Shown here: positions 523-55,035 of the stretch, one piece after another
How positions within the stretch are numbered: position 1 is the stretch's first letter
How the letters are laid out: each line of letters starts with the position of its first letter
NCBI GenBank assembly: GCA_022539475.1
Contig: VCMS01000210.1
Coordinates: 1 to 64,000, forward strand
DNA length: 64,000 bases
Reading direction: 5' to 3'
Source of the DNA: Gracilaria domingensis
Lineage: Eukaryota > Rhodophyta > Florideophyceae > Gracilariales > Gracilariaceae
Program-made: the position numbers and the translations under genes
The notes under the pieces: generated by a model
The model's database searches: none
The model's input: only the letters and a program-made list of their open reading frames with translations
Told to the model about the DNA's origin: nothing

Positions 523-557
523 GCAAGGGAGCCTCCAGCAATGGAGAGGCGCCCCCA

Positions 558-13380: not shown

Positions 13381-15658
13381 TCACTGGTGAGATTCCGGCT
13401 CAGCCGACAACTCAGCAAGTCCGCGGTTGGGATGCGGCAATACGGACAACGAAGTGGGCGCTACCGCTTCGGCGGCTGGATTCACAGTAGGCGTGGCGGT
13501 GTCCGGCGTTTCCGGTTGCGTTTTCGGAGAAGCAGGCGTTGGTGCAGGCGTTACGCGATCCCGCGAAAAAAGCTCGTGCTCTCCCTTGATGTCAAGGACA
13601 ACCGTAGTGTCGGTAACTGAAATGACCGGGTAGGGACCATCCGCGATAGGGGAAAGCTTGTGGCGCTTCTCCTTCTCGGGATTGTAGTATTCCTTCCGTA
13701 TGAAGGCATAGCTACCTTCCCCAATCTGAGGGGCATGTCTGCGCACTCTTGCGTCGAAATTCCGCTTGTAGGCGGCTTGTGCCTTAGCGATATTCTGCCT
13801 AACCGTAGGAATAATCTTCGTGAGCCATCCCTTCCACGCGTCCTAATGCAGGCGGGGCGAGGGGAACTTTTCCAGTACTGGCTGTGGCTCGATGACAACC
13901 GACGGTGGAACGGGTGATAGCACAAGCTCGAACGTCGAGATCTGAGTAGTACGATGAACATGCGTATTGTAGGCATACGTCACCGCATCGGTGTATTGAT
14001 CCCATTCCGATGGATGCTCGGCAACGAATGTCCGTAATGCATTGAGCATTGTGCCGTTAAAACGTTTAACCTGCCCATTACTCTGGGGATGATATGTTGT
14101 CGTGAACCAGTTTTGGATCCGCAAGATGCGGCAGACGTCTTGAAAGAACTTGGTCGCAAACTGCGGTCCGTTCTCCGATAACAAATCAATCGGGGGTGTG
14201 TAGACAAAAACTCAGTGTGTACCGAAAGCTTGGGTGACCGCACTGGCGGTAATCTTCTTCAAAGGCACAGTCCGTACCAGCTTAGAAAAGCGGTCGGTGA
14301 TCACCAGTAGAAACCGGTTCCCCTCACGGGTGCGAATAAACTCACCGAGCAAGTCAATAGCCACGAACTTTAGTGGAGCCCTAGCAGGGAAGAGTACCAA
14401 CTTCTTGGAATACTTCCGCAGTTTGACGCGGTTCTTCGCGCAATCAGAACATCCATGAACAGTGGTATACGCATCAAAAGCCATCGCTGGCCGGTAGAAG
14501 TCCTTTCTCAAGGTGTAGTACAACTTCCTGCCGCCAGTGTGGGCTGAGAGCTTCGCATAGTGCGACAGGTGCAGTACGCGTGACTTAAGTGAGTGCGGAA
14601 CCACAGTCTGTGACCTGTTTCCGACAGTTCGATTGAGAAATCCTTGATCGTTCTCGACGAAAAGCAGCCGTGCTCTGCCGTTCAAACGGCTACGAATCTC
14701 CGTACAAAAACAGTCCGTGTGCTGCTCCCTGATGAGTTCTTCCAGCTTAATCGGTACGAAAGAACCCGGTTCTGGGCGCGTGTCTGACACGGCTAAAACA
14801 GCATCGTAGATGTCCCATCCTCCAGAATCTTCATCGGCATCGCTCGAGCCGTCTTCCGCGAGGAAGCACGGCATTTCCAGGTCATCGACTGGCGCAGCTT
14901 CAGCCGTTGTTTCCAAGCGGGACAGTGCATCAGCCTGAGTGTTCAGGAGTCCTTTCTTGTAGCGGATTTCAAAGTCGAATTCCGACAAGCGAAGTCTCCG
15001 CCGCATCAAGCGGCCGAATGGCTCTGCTATAGAGAGTAGCCAGCGTAAGGCCGAATGATCGGTATGAAAAATGAGACGAGTTCCCATTAGATAGGGCCGC
15101 AGTGTCTGTAATGCCCAGACAACTGCCAAGCACTCCTTCTCGGATACCGAGTAATTCCTCTCGTGAACGTTGAGGGTTCTTGACCAATACCCAATTGGCA
15201 ATCGCTCGCCATCCTTGATGGTCTGGAACAGTCCACAGCCAACTTGGTAGTCGCTCGCATCCGTATCTATTGCATACGGCAGACCAGCTTTAGGTGAGGA
15301 TAAAACATGTGGCGATGTCACCGCGTCAAAGAGCGACGAGAAAGCCACAGATGTGCGGTCGTCGAACGCTTCCAGATTGACTGGCTGTCCTTTGCGAAGA
15401 AGCTCGTTTAGAGCTGCAGCGATATCCGCAAAGTTCGGAATGAAGCGGCAATACACATTGCACAAACCGAGAAAAGATCGGAGTTCCGTCTCCGTCCGCG
15501 GATGCTTAGCCTCTTTGAGAGATTTCACACGGACTTCGTCTATCGACAGATGTCCAGGACGGATAACGTGGCCGAGATACCTGACGGTCTCGGTGAAGAA
15601 CTCGCACTTCTTCAGCTTGAGTGTAATGCCTGCATCGCGTAGGATTCGCATCACATCC
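13381..15658 (-). pseudogene. pol 3' half (end of RT, RNase H, integrase), copy B
   Basis: Carries the end of the RT domain, RNase H (DTDASDYQVGCGLF near 15270), the integrase zinc region (LSHYAKLSAH near 14560) and the integrase core and C-terminal tail, ending near 13381. It is the continuation of the RT that stops at 31413. Part of a broken element. Confidence 0.9.
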
Positions 15659-15664
15659 CGTACG
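15659..15664. repeat. target-site duplication CGTACG, left
   Basis: CGTACG joins gypsy pol to the insertion. The same six bases are at 31407-31412. The uninterrupted site is present once in copy A at 2339-2344. Because the hexamer is a palindrome in a palindromic context, a 5- to 7-bp reading is also possible. Confidence 0.8.
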
Positions 15665-15912
15665 TCTGTGTTCTGCAAAGTGGAATGTAGTCTGTTCGCT
15701 TTGGAAACTAAGCTAGTTTTTGGGCTATTTGGGGCGCGCGAGGGGATAGCAGAGGCTGGCACTCAAAAAATTATGAAATTTTGGAATATTAAATTCTATC
15801 TTGCGCAGTTTAATTCTTGGGTCTCCTAGTTTTTGTAGAGGTTCTACTTCGCCGCACCACCCCATCCACTCTTTTCCGCGACCCTCTCTCAAAACTGCGC
15901 TCGTGCTAGTTT
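15665..15912 (+). repeat. left terminal and subterminal repeats of the DNA transposon
   Basis: TCTGT terminus at 15665. Subterminal motifs GCTAGTTTTTGG at 15712, CCTAGTTTTTG at 15825 and GTGCTAGTTT at 15903. All read in the same direction and are mirrored at the right end. Subterminal arrays of this kind are the transposase/accessory-protein binding sites of CACTA-type elements; binding here is inference. Confidence 0.65.
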
Positions 15913-16025
15913 GCGTTTCCATTTTCTCCCATGTTGCAATTCCTATTGCAACTCATCCCACTTCAATCATCCCATCACTTCTTCCCAGTCCACAGCACCC
16001 CCGCTCTTTACCCATTTCTCGCCCA

Positions 16026-17113
16026 TCACGCGTCCGCATCCTCCCTCTCCGTCTCCGCGAACGTCATTCTGTAGAAGTCAGGTTGGCAACTATCCCCATT
16101 CTCGTATACCCGCCTCGCCCCAAAACCGCTCCAAATCCCTCCCATCCTTCTCTCCTTCTGTCCCCTCAAAATCCCTTTCGCAGTCCGCGCTACCTCCGCC
16201 GCACTCCTAAACCCAGTCACCACTGGAGCTGCGACTCCTCCCGCGGCACCTCCTCCACCACCTTATTCATCTCCTTACGCCTCTTCTTCAGACGGCTCTT
16301 CTCATTCCCAACCCCACCACCCTTTGTCTTCGGTGTCACAGAGGACCCCTTCTTCACCACCACCCTTCCCGCACTTCCCTTCTCCGTCTTTCCCTCCACA
16401 CTTCTTTTCCCCGTCTCCTATTCCACCAATCTTTTCTTCTTGCCCAGCTCCTTCACCTCCTTCTCCAGCACGTCCAACATCTCGTTCAGAACCCTATTCT
16501 CCTCCAGCAACTCTCCAACCTCCCTTCCCTCACACTCTACTTTCCCATACACATGATTCGTCATCTCCACTCCCAATACCGACAACGAATTCCGCAGGCT
16601 CGAAATCGTCTCAACCGAAACACCACTACCACCACCCCTCAGCACCACACTGCCAATTTCCGTTAAAATCTCCACAATTCCATCGTCCAGTCGCTCCTTC
16701 ATCACCAACCCCAACATCCCCACCCTCGCCTTCATCTCCCCCACAAACCGCATCTCCCTGTCATTCTCTCCGCCCCCACTCTCTATCTGGTCTCCAACCT
16801 CTAACTGACTCAGATGCACCGCACCCCTTCTCTCCATTGCGACCCCCTTCACCTCCAATTATACACCCTTCTCCACCTCATCACCATCCCCTCTCCTCGC
16901 CTCACACTTCTTTCCTTCATCGGCCACTTCCTTCTTCTGCAACATCCGACCAGCGGCCGTAATCACGTCCCCTTTCCGCTTTGGTGACGGCATCGGCGGT
17001 ATCTCCTTCCTCTCCAACAGCACCAACAGCTCCTCATCCTTCACGTATCCGTTCGACATCTTCAGAAGAAGAAGTAGTAGTTGGATCGAAGTTTTCGCTG
17101 CGATACAGAGCAA
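16026..17113 (-). pseudogene. decayed coiled-coil Lys/Glu-rich protein of the transposon
   Basis: A single minus-strand frame from 17113 to 16217 reads through in-frame stops just after 16859 and 16418, and ends at 16217. A further piece in another frame covers 16223-16026. The product is rich in Glu, Lys, Val and Gly. It has a Leu/Val heptad stretch (LLEENRVLNEMLDVLEKEVK) in the middle and basic Lys/Arg clusters toward the end. The coding strand is almost all purine, which leaves the plus strand CT-rich over 15.8-17.0 kb. No known domain. The long shared frame argues for a real gene lost by nonsense changes, or one using read-through; the first is simpler. It could be a DNA-binding accessory protein of the transposon (inference). 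Confidence 0.5.
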
Positions 17114-17309
17114 TCGAGTTAAGCTGTGCTGTCAACCCCCACTGTCCAACCACACGGGCTATATCCAGCACCATGATTGTCCCTGTTTCCCTCATCCCAT
17201 TTCCCGCCAAAACATCCACTGTACACCTCCGCACCTTCCACTATGTAAGCGCCACCCCTCTGTCCCCTCTTTCGCGCTCACATAGTCCCCACCCACCTCG
17301 CCTCGACTG

Positions 17310-17655
17310 GCGATATTTTTCTCTTCCGCCACAACCTCACCCGATGGTTGTGGCAAAACAGGAAGATATCGCCAGTAGCGACAAGCAGAGGACTAGTGAT
17401 TGTACTTAGAGTAGCTCACCCTCCGTCTCGACTGAGGTCATCTTCTTCTTCTGTCACATCCTGTGTAGGTTGTGACAAAACAGGAAGGTGTAACCACTCG
17501 ACGCCGGATGGGTAACAATGATAGCACGTAGAGCAGTTCATCCTCCATCTCAACATCCACTGGGGATATATTGAGGTTCTCTCACACTCTTTCCCGGTTG
17601 TGACACTAGAAAAATACATCTCCAGTAGAGACGGAGAATATAGTTGTGATAAGAA
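17310..17655. repeat. three degenerate tandem repeats (~125 bp), each with a hairpin
   Basis: GGTTGTGGCAAAACAGGAAG at 17346, GGTTGTGACAAAACAGGAAG near 17469 and GGTTGTGACACTAGAAAAAT near 17595 start three related units about 125 bp apart. Each follows an inverted complement. The first forms a long hairpin, CTGGCGATAT ... GCCACAACC / GGTTGTGGC ... ATATCGCCAG. No gene is seen in them. They lie between the coiled-coil gene and the epimerase copy. Confidence 0.6.
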
Positions 17656-17699
17656 GTAAAGATAAAGATGTAACAAACAAAAATTTTATGCTACTATCT

Positions 17700-18397
17700 C
17701 TAACCAACCTTTCGAAAACCAGCTATGACATGAGCTGGGTTACTCGATCCCAAGATGGCAGATCCTGCAACTAAAATGTTTGCACCGGCCTTCATTACTC
17801 CTGTCACAGTACTCAGTCCAATACTCCCATCCACCTGTATCCCTATTCTTGGGTCCAACTCCCTTGCATGTCGCACCTTACCCAGAACACCCTCCATAAA
17901 CGCCTGTCCTCCAAATCCTGGCTCCAGCGTCATCAATAACATGTCTACAACTCCTTCCTTCATAAGTGCTTCTACGACCTTTATAGACGTATTCAGGCGG
18001 AACGCAACTCCAACCTGCATTCCCATTCTTTCAATTCGGTTACATAATTCCTTCAACACCACTTTCTCCTCCTCAGTTGGTACCTCGCAGTTTTCTAGTC
18101 CCTTAGCCACACTCTCGATATGAAATGTGACTCCGTCTGCGCCTGCTTCTGCAAAGAGTCTTTTATCCATCGCCCAGGATCCGATACCATCAGATGAAAG
18201 TCCAAAAACAATTTCGTATGCCTTCGCAACGCTTTCAAAATAGGCGGTCCAACAGTAAGGTTTGCCACAAAATGACCATCCATTACATCTATATGCAGCC
18301 ACTACGCTCCAGCCTCTTCCATTGCACTCGCTTCATCTGAAAAGCGAGCAAAGTCTGAAGCCAAAATTGATGGTGCTATAATTAAACGAGAATCCAT
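17700..18397 (-). pseudogene. RPE: ribulose-phosphate 3-epimerase copy carried by the transposon
   Basis: The family interconverts ribulose 5-phosphate and xylulose 5-phosphate in the pentose-phosphate and Calvin pathways, using two Asp and two His on a TIM barrel with a metal ion. The start ATG at 18397 is followed by IIAPSILASDFAR, then HIDVMDGHFVANLTVGPP, FLDFHLMVSDP, MTLEPGFGGQAFM, QVDGSIG and GANILVAGSAILG; these are the standard landmarks of the enzyme from end to end. There is a TAG about 30 codons in, just before WLHIDVMDG where family members have Asp, and one frame change near 18160-18180. No introns. It lies inside the DNA transposon, so it is best read as a captured host gene now disabled. 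Alternatively it is a retrocopy that landed in the element; no poly(A) tail is visible. Confidence 0.88.
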
Positions 18398-18904
18398 ACT
18401 GAACACCGATAACTTCAGTAACACCAAACCCGTCCCTCCCAGATATACTCCCATTTTAGATCTCAATAAAAGAGAAGATTATGGCAATCCGAGTGAAGCT
18501 ATAGAACCCGTTCACGTCATTTATGAAGCCAAAATGGCTCCTTTCATCCTGTATTCAAGCTCCCGTAACTCGTACGTACAACTCAACACTATTCGATCAG
18601 TCATTCATTGTCCTTCTACTTTCCTTTTTCATCCACACTTTGTATGGTCTCATACAAGCTTTATCATTCATTCAGTACAATCACATATCATACATTTCGC
18701 TCACTTTCACAAGGTGAACCATGTTTTGGTTCTGCGCTTCCCAACCGTTTGTACTTAAGTATCACTCTTTACCCCAGCAGTTCTCCGCCCCATCTTCCAT
18801 TGATATCGTCACACAAAAACAATCGAACACTTGCAATGAACTCCCAGTCATACATGCCTCCGACTCCGCCTCCGAGTCCCAGATACTCCGACGTCCCTCA
18901 GGAC
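18398..18904. other. spacer between epimerase copy and unknown gene
   Basis: AT-rich stretch that contains the leader side of the epimerase copy and the downstream side of the minus-strand unknown gene. No gene or repeat recognised. Confidence 0.4.
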
Positions 18905-19741
18905 TCATCTCGCACCCGAAGGTCTCTGGCCATTATTGTTGGAAGGGGGCGTATAGGTACCATGCTGGCGAACGAACAAGATATGGTCATTTTCGCAATC
19001 CCCTCCTTGTGTGGATTGCGCATCCGCGTCTGGGAGGGGACCTTTTATGATCTCATCATCCTCTTCTTGCAGAGCAGTCCCGTGCTGAACCGTCTGTTTC
19101 GACGCAGAAGTTCCCCTTGTGTCCACGGTCTGATTCATCGCAGGAGATGCCCTTCTCGACGCAGTGGGCTTCGTAGCGGCGGTAGACTTTGTTTGGCCTG
19201 TCCACTTCGTAGCCGGGGATGATCTCTTCTCCTTAGTCTGCTTCGTAACAGACGATGAACCGGCCCGCGGAGGTGCTACTGATGCGCTACCTCTCGGTGT
19301 TGATGAACTTCGAATTGGCTGCGTGCGGCTTGTCGGCGTCATCACCTCACTGATAGCGCCCATCGTTCCTCGCTTGGACGCCGGAATGCTGGCTGTCACT
19401 GGTTCCATCACTTTCTCATCCCAAGGAGCGGCCGTCCGGAGATCCTGGATGTATTGTGGAGGATCCAGGCCCTCCGCTCGGTAAGGATAGAGCGTCTGAC
19501 GGCTTCGACTATTGAGAATATTATGAACAACCACAAGACCTGGGGCCAATTGCTTCCCGTTCAACTCGCGGCGTAGAACACTTCCAATTCCATGAAACAA
19601 CGCTTCCCCGACTATCAACTTTCCTTCATTCTCAATATCCGTCTGCAGAGAAACCCGCATTCCACCTTGCAATGATCGAGTGCTCCGCCGAGTGCGAGGA
19701 GTCACGCTTTGCGTACGCTTTCGAACACGAGTTGGCTTCAT
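18905..19741 (-). CDS. unknown basic protein, divergent partner of the methyltransferase gene
   Basis: 278 residues from the ATG at 19741 (MKPTRVRKRTQ); the frame extends further upstream into the repeat arm, but this ATG is the first one after the promoter-like arm. The N-terminal third has a compact segment (LIVGEALFHGIGSVLRREL, LVVVHNILNSRSRQTLYPYR). The rest is a low-complexity Ser/Thr/Pro/Lys tail with loosely repeated KQT/KPT/SPA units and an acidic end. No domain recognised. It is uninterrupted, unlike most neighbours. It sits back-to-back with the methyltransferase gene and shares its duplicated promoter arm, so co-expression is likely. It may be a DNA-binding or nuclear accessory protein (inference from charge). 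Confidence 0.55.
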   Translation of the reverse strand: MKPTRVRKRTQSVTPRTRRSTRSLQGGMRVSLQTDIENEGKLIVGEALFHGIGSVLRRELNGKQLAPGLVVVHNILNSRSRQTLYPYRAEGLDPPQYIQDLRTAAPWDEKVMEPVTASIPASKRGTMGAISEVMTPTSRTQPIRSSSTPRGSASVAPPRAGSSSVTKQTKEKRSSPATKWTGQTKSTAATKPTASRRASPAMNQTVDTRGTSASKQTVQHGTALQEEDDEIIKGPLPDADAQSTQGGDCENDHILFVRQHGTYTPPSNNNGQRPSGAR

Positions 19742-19800
19742 GTTGAAGAGATATTGCAGTGAAAGGTGTATATCAACAATACGCTCGCTCTGGACGATAG

Positions 19801-19893
19801 AAGAACGGAGGCGAGCCTTTAAATGGCGACTTACGCTGGGCACCCCCGCTTTCGGCAGCTCCTCCCAGCGCAGTGCCAGTCTCGTCCTTGTCC
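19801..19893 (-). promoter_or_regulatory. promoter-like repeat arm, left (minus strand)
   Basis: Inverted, near-identical counterpart of 20612-20704 (three to five differences by eye). It ends 60 bases before the ATG at 19741 and includes ATTTAAAG, a plausible TATA-type box, on the minus strand. Confidence 0.55.
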
Positions 19894-20097
19894 TGTCGGA
19901 GGCCGCTCGCAGGCTGATTGTACGCTTTAGAGTCGTGGAGTTCACGCAATGATAACTCACGCGAGCAATGGTCGCGCTCCCTAATCGTGCTCTTCAAATG
20001 CTTTCCATAGTACTCAGGAGTACACTCATTCACATTCATGTACAGCCTACTCCCGCCAATACACGTAGACAGCGGCGCCAACGTCCCGGCGGCCGGG

Positions 20098-20441
20098 TGT
20101 AGCGAAATCACTGCGAGGGGGCGTGTTTTGGGAGGTCCCGGGAAGGCGCCAGAACGTGCCCAAAACGTGCCCGCGGGCGGAGGGGGGGGGGTCGGTCGTG
20201 TTAAGGTAGGTACCCTAACACAACAGGACCCCGCCGCCCGCGGGCACGTTTTGGGCGATTTTTTGAAATATGTGCGATTTTATGCCCGCGGGCGGGGGGG
20301 TCCGGTCGTGTTAGGGTACCTACCCTAACACGACCGACCCCCCCCGTCGCTCGCGGCCACGTTTTGGGCACATTCTGGCGCTCTCCGGAGACCTCCCAAA
20401 ACACTCCCCCAGGCACTTCCGGCAGTGATTTCGCTGCACAC
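20098..20441. repeat. GC-rich inverted repeat with two nested 24-bp palindromes
   Basis: Arms at 20098-20221 and about 20312-20441 are inverted copies of each other. Each begins at GCGAAATCACTGC and contains TGTTTTGGGAGGTC and GCCCAAAACGTG. Inside are two near-palindromes, GTGTTAAGGTAGGTACCCTAACAC at 20198 and GTGTTAGGGTACCTACCCTAACAC near 20309, and several copies of ACGTTTTGGGC and CCCGCGGGC. This lies midway between two divergent genes of the transposon. It could be an operator, an origin-like site or a binding array for the element's own protein; the sequence alone does not say which. Confidence 0.7.
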
Positions 20442-20611
20442 GCCGTGCACATATATCGAACTAGAGAAAACTAGCGCTTCACACCCCCTTGGTCGGCGAC
20501 TATTAGTATAATACGCGACCTTTGCAATAGCTCCGAATCGCGACGTGGCCGACACGCGACGCTATCCCACCCGCTCTAAGCGGCACTGACACCCACCTCA
20601 GGCAGCGGACA

Positions 20612-20704
20612 CGGACACGGACGAGACTGGCAGTGCGCTGGGAGGAGCTGCCGAAAGCTGGGGTGCCCAGCGTAAGTCGCCATTTAAAGGCTCGCCTCCG
20701 TTCT
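20612..20704 (+). promoter_or_regulatory. promoter-like repeat arm, right (plus strand)
   Basis: Contains GAGCTGCCGAAAGC, GCCCAGCGTAAGTCGCC and ATTTAAAGGCTCGCC, all mirrored in the left arm. It ends 14 bases before the ATG at 20718 of the methyltransferase gene. Duplicated arms would give both divergent genes the same core promoter. Confidence 0.55.
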
Positions 20705-20717
20705 TTGCGCTGAAGCG

Positions 20718-21639
20718 ATGGATTCCACCGATGATGGAGAGAAGATACATCCTATCTACATGAGTGCTCCGCCTCCAGCGTTCCATGCATGTGTCAGACT
20801 TTTCTTGATTCTTCGCGATGCTTTGGCAAACAGCGATGGAGGCCCTAATCGGCCACGGGACGTGGGGTTTAGAGGGCTAATAGATTTCTGCGCCGAGAAC
20901 TATAAGGATATTCAGGAGAAGGAAGATGGTTGAGGAGGCCACTAACTCCAAGAACCTGCAGAACTTGACACTGCAACAGCTGCGAAAGAGTTTTGTGAAT
21001 AACAAGCCTGTGGAGCAACGATATCTTGTAACGAAGCAGCAGGGGGATGAGGACCAGAGACTCCGCGATAATTTCCTTCTCTCTATGGATATGGGTATAT
21101 ACCTACCGGTGCGATGCCTGGTTGGTTATTTCATGACCAGGAGAAAGCAGGTTCTGAAGACGACAGTGTTCATCCCACCAACAGCTGCGAACCCATTTGA
21201 GGTCGTCATATACTTATCATACCTCGGCCACATAATGGGAGAGAACGACAACATTAGAATGATGAAGAAGAAACAACCGAAAAAGAAACGAAAAGTGAAT
21301 CATGTACTATCTGTGTACATACCCACTTTTACGTCGTTCTCCAAAGACAACTGTGATCGACTGGGATTCGCTATCAGTGAGGTCGTATGGGCATGGAGTT
21401 GTTTTGCGGCTCAGCTTGGATACACGAACGTTCAGCATATGGTGAAACCATACATATACATGAATATGCAGACGTTGAAGTATACAGCGCTAGAGACACG
21501 GGAGTCTGGTTATGCCCCGCCAAGCCAGAGTACTCGATTCAACACACAGGATGTGCCACAGAGCAGTACTAGTGGATCGGTGGAGACCTTGAGTGATGAA
21601 TGCGATACAAACCTGCGAATACTTGCTAAAAATTTTTGA
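20718..21639 (+). pseudogene. N-terminal part of the methyltransferase-SET gene
   Basis: Begins at the ATG at 20718 (MDSTDDGEKIHPIYMSAPPP), right after the promoter arm. The first frame stops at 20933; a second frame overlaps it from the ATG at 20926 and runs to 21639. The product is helical, with aromatic residues, a Lys-rich nuclear-localisation-like run near 21262-21295 (KKKQPKKKRK) and a Ser/Thr-rich end. I recognise no domain. Same strand and order as the methyltransferase and SET parts that follow, so it is most simply their N-terminal region, split by a frame change or an intron. Confidence 0.5.
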
Positions 21640-22048
21640 CAGACCTCGAAAATGTGGATCGATAAGCTATCGAAGGGAAATGGGAGATATGGCGGGAGAT
21701 TGTAGAGGGTTCTGTTTGGTCACTTTTCAGAGTGGTATTTATTGTGCGACGGGTTGAGTCGCGACTGCTGTTGATGGTCAGAGTTTCAGAAGGTCTTTAT
21801 TACCATCGCGCTCTCATTCTGCAGTGAACGCCTCTCGTGAGGCCTTTCGGCGCCTGTGCGCCATTCTAACTGCCACCCTTCGACATGGGTGCTGTTCTAC
21901 GACACTGACGACCCCGCCAGGGCCGTCAGCGCCGGCCTACCGCGGGAGCTAGAGCCGCTACTGTACGCAATGAACACCGTCTCTTGCTCGCGTCTCTACA
22001 GAAACCATATGCACCCACGATAGCCTCTATAGCTTACGGGTTGATCAG
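21640..22048 (+). other. non-coding stretch inside the methyltransferase-SET gene
   Basis: All three plus frames are closed by stops. The stretch has short GC hairpins (GGCGCCTGTGCGCC near 21849). It could be an intron, a decayed exon or a small insertion; I see no clear splice pair or target duplication. Confidence 0.35.
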
Positions 22049-23277
22049 ATGAAGAACTGGATAGAGTTTTCGGAGATACGAATGCATACCGTATCTGGTT
22101 CTGCCTCCGGTGAGTTGCCTGCACGATTTCAGAACTTTTCGAAGTTGCTATGGAAACCGATACCGGATATGCGTCATGCGGCAGGGTTCAATGTGGGCAT
22201 TCACGCAAAACCCGATATTGAACTTACGAAAATTCCTAAAACTTCCGGTAATGCCGAACCATCTTCGACCAAGTCTGCCCCACCTCCACCTCGTCGAGAG
22301 TATATGGACCTCGTGAGCTCTGATAGCGACGACTTCGAGAAGCCGGTGAATCGTGCCGAGCATGAATCTCAAGTTGCCGAGTACAACATCCAAAAGACTG
22401 GATTGAGCCGCCCATGAAGGGGATATCCAGTCTCCTTCGAATGAAGATGGACAAGGTGTGGAAGGGGATGAGAAAGTCACACTTTGTAGCGTACAACTGT
22501 GACATGAAGGACCTGAGGCACACACATGAAACATTTGTGAATCAGAGTGAGATTTTATGGGGTGAGGCATAGCTTGTCCTAACAGACCCTCCCTTTAACA
22601 CTCGAAGAAAGAGGAGCAAACAGAATAGTGGTCACGATGTCTTCAGTGAGGAAGACATGATCCGTACGGCTGACTTAATAAGTTCCGCGCTTCGGTCAGG
22701 TGGGCACTTCATTATATTCTGTGCCATGGCACAGTTTCATGTTTGGCACAGGATACTCTCGGAAACGGCGACTACGAAAGATGACGCTGAAAGCGAAGGT
22801 AAGCCAGAACTCATGCCTTCGTTTAAAGCGGATGGGAATCCACTGGTGTTCATCCGGGATCGAAATAATGTTGGCTGGCATCCAAGGAGGTTTGGGATAC
22901 AGCCCGTAACGGAGTACGCCGTTCATGGGGTGAAGCGTGGATTGCGACCATCCGAGGAAGCCAGTCTTACTACATTTGAGGAGAACAATATCATTCCTTC
23001 TACTTTCCCGGCTAACAGGAATGTAATTGACCGGGTGCCGAAACCGAGAGCGGGGGAGTAGTTGCCATGGAAGGTAAATGAACCAGGTAGTTCAGTACCA
23101 GGTGGGCAGTACATAAGACCGGAGCAGAAGTCGAGGGAGTTGATGAAGGAGTTGATATGTCGCTTCACAAGACCGGGTGATCTTGTCATGGACATGTTCG
23201 CGGGAACTTTTTCTATGGGTATGGCGTGCCTATCGCTGACAAAGCATAGGAAGTTCTTGGGGGTGCGAGAAGAATAG
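22049..23277 (+). pseudogene. beta-class DNA amino-methyltransferase domain (N6-adenine or N4-cytosine), transposon-borne
   Basis: Such enzymes move a methyl group from S-adenosylmethionine to an exocyclic amine of DNA. The catalytic motif IV, L-T-D-P-P-F-N-T, is at 22585-22596 (DPPF core). The cofactor-binding motif I comes after it at 23191-23211 (DMFAGTFSMGMA), preceded by RPEQKSRELMKELI and followed by KHRKFLGV. This order, catalytic before cofactor motif, is that of the beta class, typical of bacterial restriction-modification enzymes (PF01555-like). Between them is a variable target-recognition-like region (about 22650-23060). The domain is interrupted by a frame change near 22415, a TAG before the DPPF motif and a TAG near 23060. 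DPPF is compatible with either N6A or N4C; base specificity cannot be read. Confidence 0.8.
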
Positions 23278-23299
23278 GCCATGTTTCAGCCATGCGAAG

Positions 23300-24197
23300 C
23301 ACCATCTAACGACTCTTATGGCCGAAGTTATTCGCGGGGGGAAGAATGACATCCTGGTTGAACAGGAGGTGGTGGATGCGGCTTCAACGACTTATGAACG
23401 GGTTCCACATCGGGACCGAGGTCGGCTTGAATGGGAGGCTCCATTTGGATACCCCCAGTAACAAGTGATGCCTGCACATATTACTCAGTTCCTAGGAAGA
23501 TACTGGAAGGACTGGGAGTTTGTCGACAAGTGTGAACAGCATACTGTAGATCTTTGGGACGAGAAGTACTGAGGAGCTCTGAATCTAATGGATATGCATA
23601 TGCTGTTGACTGTGGAAGCCAATCTCTATCGCTTACATGTATCATCTTCTAAGATTCGACATCCCCGTGCTGGTATGGGGGTGTTCACGGAACATAAGAC
23701 ATTGGCTGGGGAAACTATCTGTCATTTTTATGGAACTTTGGTATACACGGATCTGACGAACCGGAAGGAAAGACACTTAACGTATGGAAGTGGCTGTCTC
23801 GGAGCAACTCCAGTGCGGTACAAGTTGTTTTCTATGATGGTCAATGTGACTGGTTCGGAGTTTCTGCACCTGAGGAACAGACAGACCAGGACAGGCTGAG
23901 GATAGAAAGGAGAGCGAAGTCTACATTGCCCCGGCGCCTTTTTGTATCGGGAGCTACATTAACGACGCCGGATATCATGCAGGGGATCCCGATTTATCGC
24001 AGCCCCGGTCGAACAGGACTCGAAATGCCAATGTGAAGATGGTGGAAGCGAAGTCCGTGATACAGTTTAAGTCCGACCTTTCTAACTATGCTCTACTTCG
24101 TTGTAGAGCAGTGAGAGATATTGAGAGGCGCGAAGAGTTGTATTTCAACTACGGAGAGCAGTACGCCTGGGACTGGGCTCTGACATTGGAGCACTAG
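23300..24197 (+). pseudogene. SET domain (protein lysine methyltransferase) fused to the DNA methyltransferase
   Basis: After the methyltransferase a linker reads on (HLTTLMAEVIRGG from 23308) into a SET domain. The N-terminal SET part is at 23650-23780 (GMGVFTEHKTLAGETICHFYG). The core is at 23943-24050 (CIGSYINDAGYHAG, then RNANVKMVE). The C-terminal pseudoknot part is at 24085-24175 (YALLRCRAVRDIERREELYF, NYGEQYAWDW), closing with a stop at 24195-24197. SET enzymes methylate lysines, usually of histones. The linker has a TAA and a TGA, and the SET has one frame change near 23890, so it is disabled as it stands. No Cys-rich pre- or post-SET is seen. Confidence 0.78.
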
Positions 24198-24437
24198 ATG
24201 AGTGCAGTACCGAATGGAAAGTAAATATGCTTGTGAATGTTGCAGCTGCCTGCAGTACGCGTTGTACATGTACACTGGAGCTCTTCATCTATTTGAAACG
24301 GCGATATTTGCGACCCATTGGGCACCTCAAATTCCTAAAAAGCAGGAACTACGGAGTCTTCCGGAATATCTGAACCACGCCCACCACCCCCTCCCTCCCC
24401 AACCATTTCGTTTCATTACCCCGTTTATCTCCACAAC

Positions 24438-26832
24438 ATGGGTATAACGCCGAGAAAGCGAAAAAGTACGCAGCGGAACAAGAGTGGACAGAAGAAGAGA
24501 AGAGCATCGGATGATACGAATCAGGCTACAAGTACCGCACTTCCTAAACGGAAGTCTTCCTCGACGAAGGAGAGAGTCAGTGGACGTCCTTCTACAGTAC
24601 TCTCTCGCCCATCTCGCAGCGGAGTGTCTTCCGGGATTTCGTCAAGAATTCGTGCATCAGCGAACGATATCGTGCCGTCAACTACCGATAATGCAAATCT
24701 TGCATCTGTCTCTGCTGCCCAAGAAGATGAGGTAACTCGGCCCAGCGGCTCAGGACAGGAGGGCATGACAACTGGAAATGATCAGGTTCGTATGACACCA
24801 AAACCTTCACGTCCCAGCCGATATCGAAGACCGGAGCTACTGGGGCGCGGGTTACGCCGCCCAGTGGATCTGGACAACAAGGGACGATGACGAGAAGTCG
24901 TGAGAACCCCTATATATTAAAATCGTCACGTCCCTCCCTGTCTTCTAGAACTGGGGCCACTATGAATCGTATTATGCCTCGCAATGGGTCCGGACAAGGG
25001 AGAAAGACAATAAGAAATCGAGAGACGACTGATAGGCGAGTTACTCCTCTACCTTCCCCTCTTTCCAGAACGGGGGCCGTTGCAGCTCGTGCGAGGCCCA
25101 ATTCATCTGATATACGATGCAATGGAGGAGGACAGACACGGGAGTTGGAGCTGGGAGCCGTGCCAAGGGTGGACACAGAACGCCTGCAGCCTCTCGTGTC
25201 TAAGCGTATGGCACATGAGGATAGTTTCGATAACGAAATAACACCCAATCCTGTGGCATTACCGCGGCCTGTCGCGAAGAGGCTAGGGAAATACCGGAAG
25301 ATACCCACACTGGTGTGAATTCAACCTCTATGAACAGACGTGAACTTTTAAATGAACTGAGTTGCTTGAAAGAAAAGGTTAAGACGCTACAAGAGGACTT
25401 GATGGTTCGGGGTATTCTAGTAAAGGTCTCCCAAGAGCAGAGTACGGCTTTGAGAAAGAGGATGGAGAAGATGGATCTAGTCATTGAAAGGCTAAGGGGG
25501 GCTCTGGAACAGGAGGGAGATAGGAGTACACCTGCTGGTGAACCTGGGCAGACAGGTCGAAAGAAGCATAAAATTGAGGTGTGCGACGAGTTTCGAGGGG
25601 TTGCTCGAGCAGTCTATCACAACATGCTGACGTGGGCAAGGAGAGAAACAAGTGAGCTATGGCTCGAAGGTGAGTCTCTCACCCGAAATTGGGGTAACCG
25701 TACCGAGAAGGTGGAAGACGCAACTAAGAGTGGAGAAGGGCTTATTGAGCCGGAGAAAAGTGGTTCATGCATGGCTCCTAAAAACCCCGTGGAGCTCTTG
25801 GGCAGTTTTGGCATGTTCACACCGTCGGTATAGGGGGGGCCAGATGCTTTGCTGAAGAAAATGGTTGAAAGCGAGTTGAAGGAGTTGAGCTGGGAAGGTA
25901 TTAGAAAAGCATCTCTTACCGACAGGTGTATACTGGAACTTTGTGCAGATATGTGCCTTAGGCAGAGAATGCCGCAGACCATGAGTGACGTCGTGGGCGT
26001 TCAGAAGAGATATAAGAGGGATAAACTATTTCTGCTCCTGGGGTACGATCTGATTTGGAGAAGAACAAAGCTGGTAGAAGAGAATGCTGACGAACTCACA
26101 ATGCAGTTGAAGGAAGCGTACGAGAACATACTGCGTCTTGACGAAAATGGTGTACCGAACACTTCATGGTGGAGAAAAGCCCCATTTTTTCGTCTAAAGT
26201 ACTCCAATGCGGACAATGTCGAGGATATGGCGACGGAAGATCAAGACTTGTTCTTCCGAAACCATGTCGGGATATAAGTACTGAAGGAGTTTATTGGGTA
26301 TGATGTGGAAGACAAGGATACGGGCACCTTTTTAGATGGCACAATACTGTTGCTCGCACGTTTGGACGCTTGGGTGTTGACGGTTGTGAGCCTTCTAAGT
26401 ACGGATGTGTCAAGGGGTGGCCAGAGACAGAAACTGTTTACAAAGAAGTTTCCCCAACTGCTACCTCTGTGTTTAAAGAATGTTCTGGGGGAAGTTAGGC
26501 AACGTGTCTTGAGGACCAATTCCAGCGAGTTTCATAATTTTGGAACGACAACGGAAGATTAGACTAAGGTTCTTGGTAATGACATGAGAGAAGCTACATT
26601 TGCATATCGAATGCCGTCGAACGGAAGACTTTACCTCACTGTGAAAGAACCATTTTTTATTGACAGTGTGAGCCGAAGATTGGGTTCTATTAGCGATTGT
26701 TTCGTTGGTGAATGCGAGGAAGGGGATATGGAGTTCAAGGAAATGGACATGAACGATTTCGGAAGTAGCACAGGATCACAAGAAAAGGCACCACAAGGTG
26801 AACATGTAGAGGATGGAGCCCTTAATGTTTAA
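24438..26832 (+). pseudogene. second transposon protein: basic Ser-rich N-terminus, coiled coil, unknown C-terminal region
   Basis: Three segments follow in order. 24438-24890 is Lys/Arg/Ser-rich (MGITPRKRKSTQ). 24887-25318 is similar and in another frame. 25315-26832 is one 506-codon frame crossed by three nonsense codons (25831-25833, 26275-26277, 26560-26562). The last begins with a Leu heptad coiled coil (LLNELSCLKEKVKTLQEDL) and continues into a helical, aromatic region with SWWRKAPFFRLKYSNA. I do not recognise a family. Its place beside the transposase suggests an accessory protein such as the TnpA-type subterminal-binding partner of CACTA elements (inference). Confidence 0.5.
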
Positions 26833-27086
26833 GGCTGTACAAGATCAACGTGCTCAGTTGGTCCTTCATCTGAATCATGATAGAATCGATTGATGTAGAA
26901 TCGGTGTTGAAACCATTGAAGTGGAGGAAAAAAAAGTGGAGCAGGGTAGTTTGATCGAACAACATGGACAGTTCCCTGTAGTGCAGAAGCCTGAACCATC
27001 CCGTACCAAGGAGTTAGCTCTACGATAGTCTCCGTTTTGGAATGAAGAGGGAACGGAAGAGTGTGTTTCTTTTCATCGTTTGTAGC

Positions 27087-29480
27087 CTACCGTAAAAATA
27101 TGGATTTCAATATGTGGTCGATGTTTGTTGCGGGGGGTAAAACCTCGAAATACCGGACAAATGCCACCTCTGGTGCGGTAAGTGCAGAATCAAGGAGAGT
27201 TATTCGAATCAGAGCGACTACCTGGGCAACCCAAGTCTCTGAATCTTCTCCGCTTACCAATACAGTGGAAAACTTTGGCTTTCTACTGGGACCAAATGCT
27301 GGAGAAGCGAAGACACGTTGGATGATGGGGTATTTGGGTCGTCCCAGCTTAAGTGCCTTAGAAGACGAATCGAAGTGTTCAAGAGTCGGAACGAAACCGC
27401 CTTTCACGAGGGCCGAATTCACCAGAGTTATCCTTGTCTTTTCTGGGAAGTATGTAATAGAGTGCTCATCCAGTGTTTCTTTCACGAGACTGAGGAAAGG
27501 AGAAAGGGCCTGTTCACCAATTTGGTCAAGAATCGACCTTGTGTCCGTACTTGAGAACATCTCTCTAACAGCAGTCCATGTTTTTGAACTGGACATACTT
27601 GAAACACAATGTTGAAGAGCTCGTAAAGTGAAAGAACGCCCTCTCATTGCAAACCGAGGAAGCTGTGTGGAAGTTCCTGGTAAACCTGGATTACGCTGGT
27701 AAGGAGTATTGCCATTCCATTGCTTTCTAACATGTCCGTGCTCAATGGAGCGAATAGTCTCCTCCACAGCCGTTGCTGTTCTTCTAGACGTCTTTTTGTA
27801 GTGTCTTTTAAATAGCAGGTGTGCATGTTCGTATATGCCTGCGTAGTACTTGATACTTCCCAGACGGCGAATATCGTCCACGAGATGATCGAGAAGATGA
27901 AACTTCAGAGTTCCCAGTCTGGAGGGATGAAAATCCGCCAGAGAGTTTGTTGCGAAACGCTTGAAGGCTTCAATCTCCGAACTAAGACACAGGAGAGAGC
28001 TTTCAGTCCAATACGGGTCACGATTGTATCTAAATAAGGTCGAAAGCAAGTCTGAGTACTGAAAGAAAACGGTTGTGATTGGGGCAACGTCCTGTTCTCC
28101 ACAGCATATGTCAAAGAATGCTCCTATGAAGGGAAAGACCATGTCAAGTGCTTTGTAGTTTTTGGCCTCCAGCATTCCACGGAGACCGTCTTTCGTGAAG
28201 ATACCATTCAAAGATTTGCCTTTCTCCTGCGTGGAGAAATCGATATGTAAACCTTTGGCAGGAGAATCGCGTTCTCTGGCAGCTAGAATTGCGTTTGCAT
28301 GGTTGAGGAGTTGGGTGCGTATCGTTCGAAATGAACGCGATGCAGATGTTCCTATTGTGGTGCACAGGGTGTCTGACTGCAGTCTCTCGATTGTGGCCGT
28401 TTTTATCAACTTTGAGATGTCGAGATGCAAGTTGTGTAATGGTTCGAATGAGAACAGACTGTATGGAGACAATCCCGGGATCATTCCAAGGCTTACGGAA
28501 GTTTCGAGGAACGAAGGAATGAGAGATATGGAATTTGAACGCATCAGAGTATCCGCTTGAGATCTCCTCTCCCTCGCACGACGTGGACGTCTTTCCGCCT
28601 CGTCTTTTTGTGCATGTTGCAAGATAGCTGTGTATGTCTTTCGGATGCTTTTCGTGTGCTTTTGAGAACGACCGTTGAATGAGGTGGGAACGGGACTGCA
28701 TAAAGATGAGCGAGGGGCTTCGCATCTATGACACGGGCTTTCCGTTTTGGTCCCATGAAGAATGGACAGAATGTCCTTAGCCTCAGGAATATCCGCACAA
28801 TAACTTGCAAGCAGAGGATGGCACACTCGACTTAGTTTGTCTTCGCCGATGAACTGAAAACCTTTCTGCGTGAGATTTAGAATGGGCTCCAGGACTTGAC
28901 GAAGAGATTCTTGAAAGATTTTCATCCTGGACTGGCGTAGTGACTTGCTCGAAACGAATGGCATTGCGTCTGCTTCAGATGCGGAAACCTCGATCAGTGT
29001 GGTAGGGAAGTATGCCACTACTGTGAGGTCATCACGGATGCACTTACGGCGTAGCTCGTCGGAGAAGTTGAGAAATATGGGGTGAAGAGGATAGGCGGTT
29101 ACCGATGTTTGCTTTAGAGTTGTTGAAGACTTATCGGTGTATACCTGGAGAAGACCTACGAAAGATTCGCTGTAACTTATTTCTTTGGAGTACCACACTA
29201 TTCTACTATCCAAAGAGCCCATGACCATTTCCTTAAGTTTTGAGGTGGCGTCTCTTGCGAGAGAGCCGGACACGGGGTGAGATATTTGTGTGGAGAGGGT
29301 CTGAGGTATAGGATGGAAGAATGTGTTTTCGTTGCTAGCTAACTGGAGCTGTTTCAAAAGTGTCTGAACGGGGTCTCTCGTGTAGAGGGTGTCGCTGAAC
29401 TTACATCCTTTAGGCGAGACAGTTCTTCGATTGAAACCGTCTTTTGAGGCGTACCGTTCGAAAATGACGTTCTTTAGTTC
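27087..29480 (-). CDS. Plavaka-like (CACTA superfamily) transposase, core and C-terminal part
   Basis: An open frame of about 800 codons with no stop; it has no certain ATG and is probably continued from the zinc-finger segment upstream. Family landmarks are readable in order: VWYSKEISYSESF, YPLHPIFLNFSDELRRK followed by DDLTVVAYFPTT, then VCHPLLASYCADIPEAKDIL, then a CHRC knuckle, and FEPLHNLHLDISK where relatives have a D-LH-LHKG-type block. This is the layout of Plavaka transposases known mainly from fungi; they cut and paste DNA with a DDE/RNase-H-fold nuclease. Exact catalytic acids cannot be assigned without an alignment. It is the only long undamaged frame of the element apart from 18905-19741, so the transposon may have moved recently. 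A KDZ-type transposase is the main alternative. Confidence 0.72.
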   Translation of the reverse strand, partial: ELKNVIFERYASKDGFNRRTVSPKGCKFSDTLYTRDPVQTLLKQLQLASNENTFFHPIPQTLSTQISHPVSGSLARDATSKLKEMVMGSLDSRIVWYSKEISYSESFVGLLQVYTDKSSTTLKQTSVTAYPLHPIFLNFSDELRRKCIRDDLTVVAYFPTTLIEVSASEADAMPFVSSKSLRQSRMKIFQESLRQVLEPILNLTQKGFQFIGEDKLSRVCHPLLASYCADIPEAKDILSILHGTKTESPCHRCEAPRSSLCSPVPTSFNGRSQKHTKSIRKTYTAILQHAQKDEAERRPRRARERRSQADTLMRSNSISLIPSFLETSVSLGMIPGLSPYSLFSFEPLHNLHLDISKLIKTATIERLQSDTLCTTIGTSASRSFRTIRTQLLNHANAILAARERDSPAKGLHIDFSTQEKGKSLNGIFTKDGLRGMLEAKNYKALDMVFPFIGAFFDICCGEQDVAPITTVFFQYSDLLSTLFRYNRDPYWTESSLLCLSSEIEAFKRFATNSLADFHPSRLGTLKFHLLDHLVDDIRRLGSIKYYAGIYEHAHLLFKRHYKKTSRRTATAVEETIRSIEHGHVRKQWNGNTPYQRNPGLPGTSTQLPRFAMRGRSFTLRALQHCVSSMSSSKTWTAVREMFSSTDTRSILDQIGEQALSPFLSLVKETLDEHSITYFPEKTRITLVNSALVKGGFVPTLEHFDSSSKALKLGRPKYPIIQRVFASPAFGPSRKPKFSTVLVSGEDSETWVAQVVALIRITLLDSALTAPEVAFVRYFEVLPPATNIDHILKSIFLR

Positions 29481-29500
29481 TGTACAGCGCTCGGAACTTG

Positions 29501-30005
29501 TTATGGTCGCGTTGAATCGCTTTTGCGAGAATCGCGCTCCCGAAGTAGCCCAATTAGCTCGTCTGCTTCACGATGACCACGGTTGGAAGCTACTGAAGCC
29601 AGACAAACCGTGAGATAATCCATATGCAAATCACCGAGGGCCTCCTCAGAAGGCACTGGGCGGGAACTGCTTCCGTGTTCTCGCTCTAATGACGCGGGAC
29701 CCGGGGAACGAGAAGCACAATGCGAAGTGTCCGAAATAAGAGGGGCGCACGGAGTGCGGTCAACGATGTCCTCGGACACCGGAGGCTCGGGAAGGCTACA
29801 AGGGGCAGTGACCGTTTCGGAAGATGCGGGCGCGGGCGCGGAAATCTTGAGACGCTTTCTTCTTCGAATGGGCCGCCTATTGTCGTCTTCCAGCGCGGCT
29901 TTCAGACGAAACGGGCAATGGTTGACATGCTGTTGAAGAGATAAGACTCCTCGGCGAGTAACGAATGGGCACCCACGCTTCTTATGTGTACAGTAGTAGA
30001 ACATG
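29501..30005 (-). CDS. N-terminal zinc-finger segment of the Plavaka-like transposase
   Basis: From the ATG at 30005: MFYYCTHKKRGCPFVTRR, then LSLQQHVNHCPF. The C-X6-C-X13-H-X3-C pattern matches the single N-terminal zinc finger commonly found in Plavaka proteins. A basic run (RRPIRRRKRLKI) and a Ser/Pro-rich linker follow, ending in ADELIGLLRERD. The next part of the protein is in another frame, so a short intron or a frame change lies between about 29480 and 29540. I could not settle on a clean GT-AG pair. Confidence 0.55.
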
Positions 30006-31106
30006 GGAAGAAGAAATGAAGGAGAAACGACGACAAAGACGGCAAAAGAAGGTCGTCCGAAGGGAGAAAGAGGTCGGGCGAAAGTCGAGATCGACGTCAA
30101 GCTGAGAACGGAGAATATATTTTGAGTTTAAATCACGTGCTTTCGTTCAAAAAGGAACGTAGGTACACGTCGACATCAACACAAGGGTGTACTTCTCGTA
30201 TTATCTACAACTGGTTATAAACCTGTGGCTTCGCAACGTTGTACGCTGTAGATTTGTCCAATCTCGCACAGAAAAATAAATCTCTTCCCTCCGCCGCCGC
30301 CGCCGCGCCTCCGGCGTCTGACCTACCGTTACCGTCGTGATCCGTGCCATCCACATCCTCGCGTTCTACTCCGCTCCGTCGTACCTTTCTCCGCCCTCGC
30401 ACTCGCTACGAAGTAGAGAGCGCGGAAGAGAATGAGCTACGCTTCATGTCCGCCTAATGGACGCCTCCATAAAGCGGACATCATCCGTACCTCACGGATG
30501 TATTCCGTGCAGTATTTCCGTGCAGTCTTTTCGTACGTGTTTCCATATCATTCTACGTATATTTGTTCTAAACTAACCAATGCTCACCACGTCTCTTCGC
30601 GCTCTGCGACATGTAAACGGCAGAAAATAAGCTTTGGGTTACTTTTGCGAGTTACTAGGTCCTTCGACTTTTCTAGCGCAACATTTCTGTTTTGGTTTAT
30701 CCATAATACGTTCCACCGCATTTCAAATATATCCAACAGAGCATTGACTAACTTACGGATACTTTCTGCTTGCGTATACAGGTAAATGACTTTTGATGCG
30801 GACGTAGTTCACGAGTTGCACGTGAATTGAACGTGCGACGCGTATGCATCTGGGCATGGTTCCCTATATGAGGAACCGAGAGGATGAGGCGCTTTGCGCC
30901 TTATCCTCTCGGAGTGCGTATTTGTTCTACTGATACCGCACTTTGGTTGAGGTGCAGTCTGCGGCATCTGCCGCAGATTGCGCCTACACCCGCTTCATCA
31001 TGGGGAAATGTTACATATAATATAGCGAAGTAGTGGTTAGCAAAAGCGGTTGATAGAAGAATAGATACGAATAAAACGGTATTATTTCATAATGGGCATC
31101 ATCTGT
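30006..31106. other. non-coding right flank inside the transposon
   Basis: AT-rich, no convincing gene. It has a CCG-repeat run near 30290-30310 and two strong hairpins: CCGAGAGGATGAGGCGC / GCGCCTTATCCTCTCGG at about 30877-30913, and TCTGCGGCATCTGCCGCAGA near 30958. Confidence 0.5.
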
Positions 31107-31406
31107 ACTAGCACCAGTATTCCATGCGTTGCAGGGTATCATTCGGCAGAAGGTATCGTGTAGTGTGCACCTTAATGGAAACTGAACCTAGACTTCGCGA
31201 AATACCGTTCAGGTAGCCCTCGACTAAAGAACTAGCACGAGTGGAAAACCCACCAGTATTTACTGCACAGCGATTCTGGACGACCCAGGCAATTATCTCC
31301 AAATTTTGAAATAAATGATCTGGATATTTTTTCAAAATATTTACTGGATGACCTTTGCCACTTTCTGGGCGACCCTCGCCAAAAACTAGCATCTGCGAGA
31401 GACAGA
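31107..31406 (-). repeat. right terminal and subterminal repeats of the DNA transposon
   Basis: Inverted motifs GGTGCTAGTA (31107), TCGTGCTAGTTC (31229-31240) and GCTAGTTTTTGGCG (31377-31390), and the terminus TCTGTCTCTCGC ending at 31406. They mirror the left end. A local duplication, TCTGGACGACCCAGGCA / TCTGGGCGACCCTCGCCA, lies at 31272 and 31362. Confidence 0.65.
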
Positions 31407-31412
31407 CGTACG
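31407..31412. repeat. target-site duplication CGTACG, right
   Basis: Second copy of the six bases at 15659-15664; gypsy RT sequence resumes at once (TGGGTCAAG). Confidence 0.8.
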
Positions 31413-33229: not shown

Positions 33230-34106
33230 GCTCAGTTTTTCTGAGCTTCGCCGCCAATCTGCGGAGGTTTCGATTCCTCAAGAGCGGCTACAGTTCCACC
33301 ATTCGATGGCACCGTTTCCTGGTTTCCAGGCTGAGTCTCCGCCTTCGCACGAAGGTACGATTTGTCCGGAATGTGTTCCCGTTCGGCGGGCGTCAACGAC
33401 TCGTATTGAGGCACGATCTTCGCCATATCCCGTATGGGCATCAAACAATTCGGAGCGATGTGTCCATGCCTGTAACAGGTGTGGTAAATAAGGTGCAGAA
33501 AAAGATCCGAATTCGACTGACGGCGCTGCTGTCGTGGAGGATAGGGATCCCTCCAACCAGGGCGTTGACTGCGATATCCACCAGCGTGTGGCACTTGCAA
33601 AGCCGGAACGTGTTGACCGGTGTACAGAGCGGGGTCTACGTCAACAATAGAGGGCTCCGTCGTTGACGGCAACTCCGTAGTCGGCATTGAACCATCAGCC
33701 TGTAACAGGTGTAGGTTGTCATAACCCCCTTGAACCGAGCCTCGCGATAGAAGCAAAGAAGAGTCCCGGCCTTCTACATGAAGGAGTTTGCGCGTGCGCG
33801 TCTTGACACCAGCGCGTGCTCGAGCTGCATCTCGCTCAGCTTGGGCAAATTGTACGAGTTCCAGATAGGTAATCTGGCTTTTGTTCTCCCGATAACGGTC
33901 TACCAACGTCCAAATTGATCGGTCCAGCCCATCAAACAACATCGTACACCGCTCGGCTGCGGAGAACACGTTGCGACATCTCTGAAAAGCCTTGTTGAGG
34001 CGGGTAGAATAAACGGTTTCCGACTCTTCGGCTCCTTGCTTCGTGTCTCGCAGCGCGAGTATAGCACCCTGTATCGCATTGCCTGTCGCTTAAGAGCGCA
34101 GAAGAT

Positions 34107-55004: not shown

Positions 55005-55035
<31 letters not shown>

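Follow-up and report, generated by a model that had tools for sequence, protein, structure and literature searches.

A 15,746-bp copy of a DNA transposon (positions 15663 to 31408) lies nested in a gypsy element within a 64,000-nucleotide stretch of the Gracilaria domingensis genome (assembly GCA_022539475.1, contig VCMS01000210.1, positions 1 to 64,000 of the forward strand), here called the window. Comparison with the rest of the genome (77.9 Mb in 680 contigs) indicates that this is quite probably a degraded copy, with an internal deletion, of a cut-and-paste transposon that occurs in many copies, is of the Plavaka/CACTA (CMC) type and in its full form encodes a fusion of a DNA methyltransferase with a SET domain; the fusion appears to be kept by selection and likely counters silencing or regulates the element. 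The window had earlier been annotated from its letters alone (the original prediction), and the outcome of that annotation is given with the results that bear on it.

The insertion is delimited by its host element. Two pieces in antisense orientation, 11531-15665 and 31407-33759, align to gypsy copy A (window 1-6460) and are interrupted at the identical base, with 92.9% identity between 2338-6460 of copy A and 11531-15665 (minus strand) and 89.1% between 1-2344 of copy A and 31407-33759 (minus strand). CGTACG flanks the insertion on the left and on the right, and the unoccupied target site is present in copy A (2338 to 2344, plus strand). The alignments thus agree with the original prediction that the two gypsy pieces are halves of one element broken at the same base, with CGTACG on both sides and an empty site in copy A, and with its proposal that a single DNA transposon is nested there. 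With the transposon limits set as described below, the left half of the interrupted gypsy element spans 11531 to 15662 and the right half 31409 to 33759, both on the minus strand.

The exact termini were derived from other copies. Pairing of listed left ends with listed right ends at most 30 kb away, contig and strand being the same, gave 52 pairs, in which two left ends share one right end in four cases; flanks were compared for 33 pairs, consisting of the window and 32 of the 52, with the remaining 20 left out. CG is found at both ends in 31 of the 33 pairs (before TCTGT in 32 left ends, after ACAGA in 31 right ends), and the 2 bp outside CG are identical in 20 pairs, compared with a mean of 3.2 and a maximum of 11 in 20,000 shuffled pairings; 13 pairs have no common 2 bp outside CG, no pair agrees over 3 bp there, and a 6-bp match is seen in the window alone. 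Because of the recurrent CG, the agreement over 2 bp and the lack of any over 3 bp, the element termini are CGTCTGT...ACAGACG and the target site duplication (TSD) is 2 bp. In the window the terminal inverted repeats lie at 15663 to 15669 (CGTCTGT) and 31402 to 31408 (ACAGACG), both given on the plus strand, and the duplicated TA lies at 15661 to 15662 and 31409 to 31410. The TA target sits inside CGTACG, so the duplication in the window looks six bases long; the six-base duplication of the original prediction is rejected by the flank comparison, and the ends it had set at TCTGT lie 2 bp further out on each side. At other copies, where it proposed a check for a duplication of 5-7 bp, the duplication is 2 bp. 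Two findings rule out CG itself as the 2-bp TSD: it would give an empty site of CGTACGTACG, yet the site is CGTACG, and 20 of the 33 pairs agree outside CG. Inward-facing subterminal CTAGTTT motifs, also predicted, were located by a motif scan as three forward copies on the left (15713, 15826 and 15906; region 15713 to 15912, plus strand) and one inverted copy on the right (31383 to 31389, minus strand), but the window total of seven is unremarkable against 4.66 expected (seven or more in 17 of 100 shuffles); the clustering alone is suggestive.

The element is abundant. Searches with terminal words at up to one mismatch found 508 left and 550 right ends in the genome, with none for reversed-pattern controls. 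When the 501-bp ends were aligned at 40 scored places per end (window included, from 650 left and 623 right first-look candidates), bases 1-501 were covered in 36 of the 40 left-end and 37 of the 40 right-end places, at 93-96% identity, the window itself aside. Core words at up to two mismatches occur 199 times for the methyltransferase, 239 for an open reading frame (ORF) of 1155 residues, 553 for the transposase and 363 for the end of a ribulose-phosphate 3-epimerase (RPE) fragment, again with no control matches. Word order was scored from exact matches among those listed and is therefore given as lower bounds: on contigs up to C84, a same-strand transposase word follows 3-9 kb downstream of at least 30 of 35 methyltransferase words (for 20 of these 30 at a spacing of 6,423-6,449 bp), and a 1155-residue ORF word lies 4-9 kb upstream of the methyltransferase word in at least 42 of 88, against 0 of 35 and 0 of 88, respectively, in opposite-strand controls. 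One copy (C20) is complete: its left end is followed on a single strand by the words for the RPE end, the 1155-residue ORF, the methyltransferase and the transposase, and then by its right end, over a span of 22,836 bp and with AG on both sides as TSD. Accordingly, the search for further copies through the transposon ends, which the original prediction had proposed, yielded copies with the same endpoints and with cargo recurring in fixed order. Identity of 98.4-98.9% over 8.8-9.7 kb in the four copy pairs examined argues for recent spread; with some 200 copies taken as long and 350 as shorter, the family would amount to roughly 8-9 Mb, or around one tenth of the genome. Identical 20-bp flanks were seen beside element ends on different contigs (right ends of L010, L011 and L015; left ends of L007 and L040), for which haplotype copies, duplicated loci and assembly joins are alternative explanations; several copies, such as C54 (L039), contain extra repeated units of a few hundred base pairs near the right end, which the window copy lacks.

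Full copies measure about 22.4-22.9 kb, and the distances between paired ends form a cluster at 22.3-23.1 kb. Their order of genes is: an ORF of 342 residues (minus strand), the RPE fragment (minus), an ORF of 387 residues (plus), two HAD-type hydrolases (one plus, one minus), the 1155-residue ORF (minus), a palindrome, the methyltransferase-SET fusion (plus), an ORF of 823 residues (plus) and the Plavaka transposase (minus). Among the fetched copies, every gene except the RPE fragment is seen at least once as a long ORF, and true gene limits are provisional. By comparison of copies, the window transposon is judged a deletion derivative, not a full element: about 6.6 kb of other copies, by arithmetic on the copy alignments, is gone at the junction 18997/19003 (18998 to 19002), including both HAD-type hydrolase genes and most of the 1155-residue ORF. 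It is very unlikely that the insertion is instead a chimera in which recombination or the assembler united two different elements at that point. In ten copies located through their methyltransferase segment and compared with the window element, the match begins at element position 3339 in eight and further in for C264 and C211, and positions 1-3338 directly precede 3339 in none of the ten, which share another upstream sequence; the two pieces are thus never adjacent there, as a chimera would have it, and in one stretch of C359 the left piece abuts another part of the element. However, C128 and C22 contain positions 1-3333 (C22 without 2353-2813) followed by that same upstream sequence, which in C165, C218 and C211 stands before the right piece, with about 6.6 kb between the pieces; because they join the left piece to the sequence preceding the right piece, the window copy is read as one element with an internal deletion, and two separate repeats joined together are rejected. 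The TSD and the empty site likewise argue against a chimera. Other shortened forms include a 10.3-kb copy (C8; 5 kb read, L107) that retains the left arm, the start of the 1155-residue ORF and a shortened transposase and is best read as another internal deletion form, and a 12.9-kb copy (C54) with a different interior and a more diverged transposase region (84%).

The transposase gene of the window copy (27087 to 30127, minus strand) is split over two frames (ORFs of 826 and 208 residues), is open over 1018 residues in C46, and keeps the catalytic columns. Its match to PF18759 (2e-17, above the curated cut-off) bears out the Plavaka-like transposase of the original prediction; this is its sole family match at E up to 0.1, and 36 of 37 transposase homologues have it (best 8000 candidates scored). 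Residues D332, D446 and E768, C466-x2-C469 and H744-x3-H748 are each found throughout the 17 sequences aligned (C46 plus 16 of the 37 homologues), and the window copy has them as well; the DDE triad was picked by the analyst among conserved columns. The Plavaka pattern is reported as a DDE triad whose second D and last E enclose C(2)C and H(3-4)H (PMC12730594), and of the 2- or 3-bp TSD expected of Plavaka elements, 2 bp is found in 20 of the 33 pairs and 3 bp in none. A KDZ (Kyakuja-Dileera-Zisupton) assignment is rejected because the transposase matches PF18759 only and the TSD is 2 bp versus 8 bp for Zisupton, and a Starship-type tyrosine recombinase has no Pfam match among the element ORFs scanned, which include a DDE transposase instead.

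The methyltransferase-SET fusion is represented in the window by a broken copy (20884 to 24197, plus strand) with four in-frame stops beside 1032 compared codons. In C465 it is a single ORF of 1055 residues that matches PF01555 at residues 516-753 (3.9e-15) and PF00856 at residues 883-1042 (1.8e-07), and the ORF of C264 (1050 residues) ends nine residues early. The epigenetic cargo of the original prediction is therefore present as methyltransferase-like sequence, but its DNA-methyltransferase-like and SET-like pieces are a single fusion gene, open in other copies. The PF01555 domain, in which DPP(F/Y) precedes an FxGT motif, fits a bacterial-type N6/N4 DNA methyltransferase, which we take to be of the beta class; PDB matches include DpnA and CcrM. 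Fourteen aligned sequences have DPP, FxGTFST and the SET residues invariant or nearly so, one having DAP for DPP; the SET residues G.G, ND, NV and EL..Y are invariant in all 14 and fit the SET protein methyltransferase family. SET activity is predicted, with ND where, we assume, NH is usual. The product may accordingly be described as a putative DNA adenine-N6/cytosine-N4 methyltransferase joined to a putative SET protein methyltransferase. Among 31 homologues of the fusion, 22 have both domains annotated; those with species names are from Chondrus crispus (both domains, 34% identical over the compared region) and, as a partial record with the methyltransferase alone, from Pyropia vietnamensis. 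A viral origin of the fusion is rejected, since at least 69 IMG/VR loci match solely within query residues 469-799 and, among the matches listed, none covers the SET domain at 883-1042; an initial IMG/VR scan with the fusion gave no match.

Selection on the element's genes was estimated as the ratio of nonsynonymous to synonymous differences (pN/pS) from pairwise counts between fetched copies and one reference copy, without a tree. The fusion has the lowest value among the genes tested, with 0.34 in its own frame and 1.39 and 0.96 in the two alternative frames, followed by the transposase (0.56; 0.84 and 1.41) and the 823-residue ORF (0.59; 1.13 and 1.02). The remaining values are 0.65 (0.91 and 0.66) for the 387-residue ORF, 0.65 (1.28 and 0.87) for the plus-strand HAD gene, 0.70 (0.80 and 0.92) for the 1155-residue ORF, 0.76 (1.00 and 0.97) for the minus-strand HAD gene and 0.87 (0.57 and 0.93) for the 342-residue ORF. 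On these counts constraint is claimed solely for the fusion, the transposase and the 823-residue ORF, and the stronger constraint on the fusion than on the transposase suggests that the fusion matters to the element. Signs of repeat-induced point mutation (RIP) or of strong CpG decay were not seen in the window copy, where CpG observed/expected is 0.93; transitions and transversions are about equal in six copy pairs, with 23-30% of transitions at CpG, a share for which no expectation was computed, and a mild CpG effect is not excluded.

Treeless pairwise counting is one of several points that weigh against the reading of the window copy as a derivative of a cut-and-paste Plavaka element with a selected fusion gene. 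Most genes are broken in the window copy, and an ORF of at least 1050 residues for the fusion is found in two of the ten fetched methyltransferase copies (C465 and C264), the others being interrupted. CG is missing at both ends of C28, at the right end of C37 and at the left end of C128, which is not among the pairs. The termini CGTCTGT..ACAGACG are unlike those reported in PMC12730594 for PlavakaA (TGT..ACA) and PlavakaB (CATCA..TGATG), TGT and ACA lying 4 bp inside the ends; from its transposase, its TSD and these non-matching termini, the element is therefore placed in Plavaka but in neither described terminal subgroup. Finally, a TSD accompanies all ten pairs of 10.2-10.7 kb, six of ten at 13.1-14.3 kb, the 12.9-kb C54 copy and the 15.7-kb window copy, and only two of 11 pairs 20.5-24.3 kb apart, so that an intact full-length insertion is evident in few long copies; no TSD accompanies the C54 pair of 22,261 bp or the C57 pair of 14,035 bp, in each of which the right end has a second candidate left end as well. 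Either recombination or assembly joins within long repeats would explain the low rate at this length, and some long copies are probably misjoined or recombined accordingly.

The complete transposase motifs, the 2-bp TSD and the deletion forms with both ends suggest cut-and-paste transposition with non-autonomous riders. The transposase would bind the CGTCTGT...ACAGACG ends and insert the element with a 2-bp duplication; the full element of about 22.4-22.9 kb would carry its genes along in fixed order and may still be mobile at present, and derivatives with both ends, such as the 10.3-kb copy and the window copy, could be mobilised in trans by the enzyme from full copies. Selection would keep the fusion as the element spreads, and the fusion protein may methylate DNA and histones at element copies, thereby countering host silencing or regulating the element. 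Protection from silencing or self-regulation appears the most likely role because the fusion is conserved while the element multiplies. The opposite function, in which the methyltransferase-SET protein represses its own or rival elements as a control on copy number, seems unlikely: constraint and conserved catalytic motifs would suit any regulator, and SET domains often write repressive marks, yet a self-repressor would be easily lost from a spreading parasite, and the core word of this gene persists in such numbers (199), a consideration that is not decisive.

The remaining gene content agrees with the original prediction of several unrelated genes inside the transposon, and could be read in another way, namely that the element is a gene-capturing carrier of the Starship or Pack type, with RPE, the HAD hydrolases and a nucleotide-binding-like protein as selected cargo. 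This we consider decidedly improbable. In its favour are the RPE match itself (17700 to 18332, minus strand; PF00834, 3.5e-25, with PDB matches), the two HAD hydrolases (PF08282, 6.2e-10 for the plus-strand gene and 7.9e-05 for the minus-strand gene), which are 49% identical to each other, and the presence of the 387-residue ORF in several copies. However, the RPE match covers only the C-terminal part (Pfam positions 76-197 of 198), and the scanned sequences did not contain the presumed N-terminal motif; the piece is read as a captured fragment, probably carried as a passenger. One HAD gene reads SVDGTL in all six copies seen (as at C218 888-1841 and C165 919-1860, minus strand), with serine at what is presumably the first aspartate of motif I, and its partner reads DVDGTL (C165) or DIDGSL (C128). 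The pN/pS of left-arm ORFs, RPE excluded, is 0.65-0.87, within the off-frame range of 0.57-1.28. The HAD gene beside the C165 copy was also considered as a host gene and rejected, since it lies within the element.

The other ORFs have few recognizable features. The leftmost is broken in the window (16418 to 17131, minus strand) and open over 342 residues in C22b and C54x, with no Pfam family above cut-off and no clear constraint. The 387-residue ORF survives in the window as a remnant truncated by the deletion (18569 to 18997, plus strand), with a GxGxxG motif and no Pfam or PDB match; its nucleotide-binding-like or reductase-like character is our presumption, to which Pfam gave no support. 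Across the junction lies the 5' remnant of the 1155-residue ORF (19003 to 19993, minus strand), which may continue after a frame change. Two public proteins, 94% and 88% identical to it, are both from G. domingensis; copies of this ORF (P0069 and P0070) are publicly named mediator subunit 15-like and cell-wall-anchored SasA, records that look like misannotated transposon genes. A ParB-like motif and perhaps a 2-oxoglutarate oxygenase-like C-terminus were considered for this ORF, labels that Pfam does not support; the ParB label is rejected, with no ParB match at E up to 10. Neither the ORF nor a composite sequence for its C-terminal region matched TET/JBP in Pfam, and an HxD-like motif in that region is discernible by eye only. 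The 823-residue ORF, broken in the window (24339 to 26562, plus strand), has no Pfam match at E up to 1 and what we assume to be a coiled-coil-like stretch.

Fungal Plavaka elements, including those bearing TET/JBP (Kojima 2025, PMC12730594), are alike in transposase family, in the DDE triad and its C(2)C and H(3)H motifs, in the 2-bp TSD and in an internal epigenetic enzyme. The present element differs in its red-algal host, CGTCTGT..ACAGACG ends, length and methyltransferase-SET fusion, and TET/JBP had no match among the element proteins scanned. In the red alga Chondrus crispus, En/Spm elements of 16-20 kb with four to five ORFs have been reported (Kojima, Bao and Jurka 2013, via PMC6431247); as described there, they resemble the present element in transposase group (CMC type), size and number of ORFs. 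Plavaka-flanked giant repeats of Amoebidium, up to 50 kb, likewise place a Plavaka transposase beside intron-poor genes, but are described as tandem gene clusters with tyrosine recombinases, and no methyltransferase-SET is mentioned in the accessible portions of PMC11244446. Phytophthora HarbingerS and MuDR elements carry SET genes too (PMC12730594), but belong to other superfamilies, and the portions available state no fusion to a DNA methyltransferase. Starship giant transposons are similarly large and cargo-laden, but have a tyrosine recombinase and fungal hosts, unlike the DDE transposase and hundreds of copies found here. The original prediction's claim that no such element had been described is thus overstated as to size alone, given the Chondrus (PMC6431247) and Amoebidium (PMC11244446) precedents, and apparently holds for the DNA-methyltransferase-SET fusion.

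Transposons with anti-silencing enzymes are already known. Searches of the open-licence literature found no report of a transposon whose DNA methyltransferase is fused to a SET domain; to the extent of these searches, what is new is the presence of the conserved fusion in an element of this kind. With hundreds of copies, some 98-99% identical, native long reads could test directly whether N6-methyladenine (6mA) or N4-methylcytosine (4mC) marks the elements in a red alga.

Between the divergent 1155-residue ORF and fusion gene lies a long GC-rich palindrome (20094 to 20442), with a DNA fold of -175.5 kcal/mol versus a shuffle mean of -76.6 kcal/mol. It measures about 350 bp and is still present in the deletion derivatives L107 (3184-3637) and C54x (6941-7372). 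A tentative extension, which we rate as rather doubtful, is that a giant Plavaka lineage of red algae encodes a bifunctional writer that marks DNA (6mA or 4mC) and histones on its own copies, with the protein of the neighbouring divergent gene binding the palindrome and directing the writer there. Such a system would be a self-contained transposon-encoded epigenetic system, conserved across red algae, by which a parasite sets its own chromatin state. Inverted repeats of 93 bp, 97% complementary, flank the palindrome at 19801-19893 and 20613-20705.

To the right of the gypsy element the window contains further long ORFs: one of 1000 residues at 41486-44485 (plus strand), with a sub-threshold PHD match; an MRS2-like magnesium transporter at 53495-55441 (minus strand); and an FGAR amidotransferase at 57563-62053 (minus strand).

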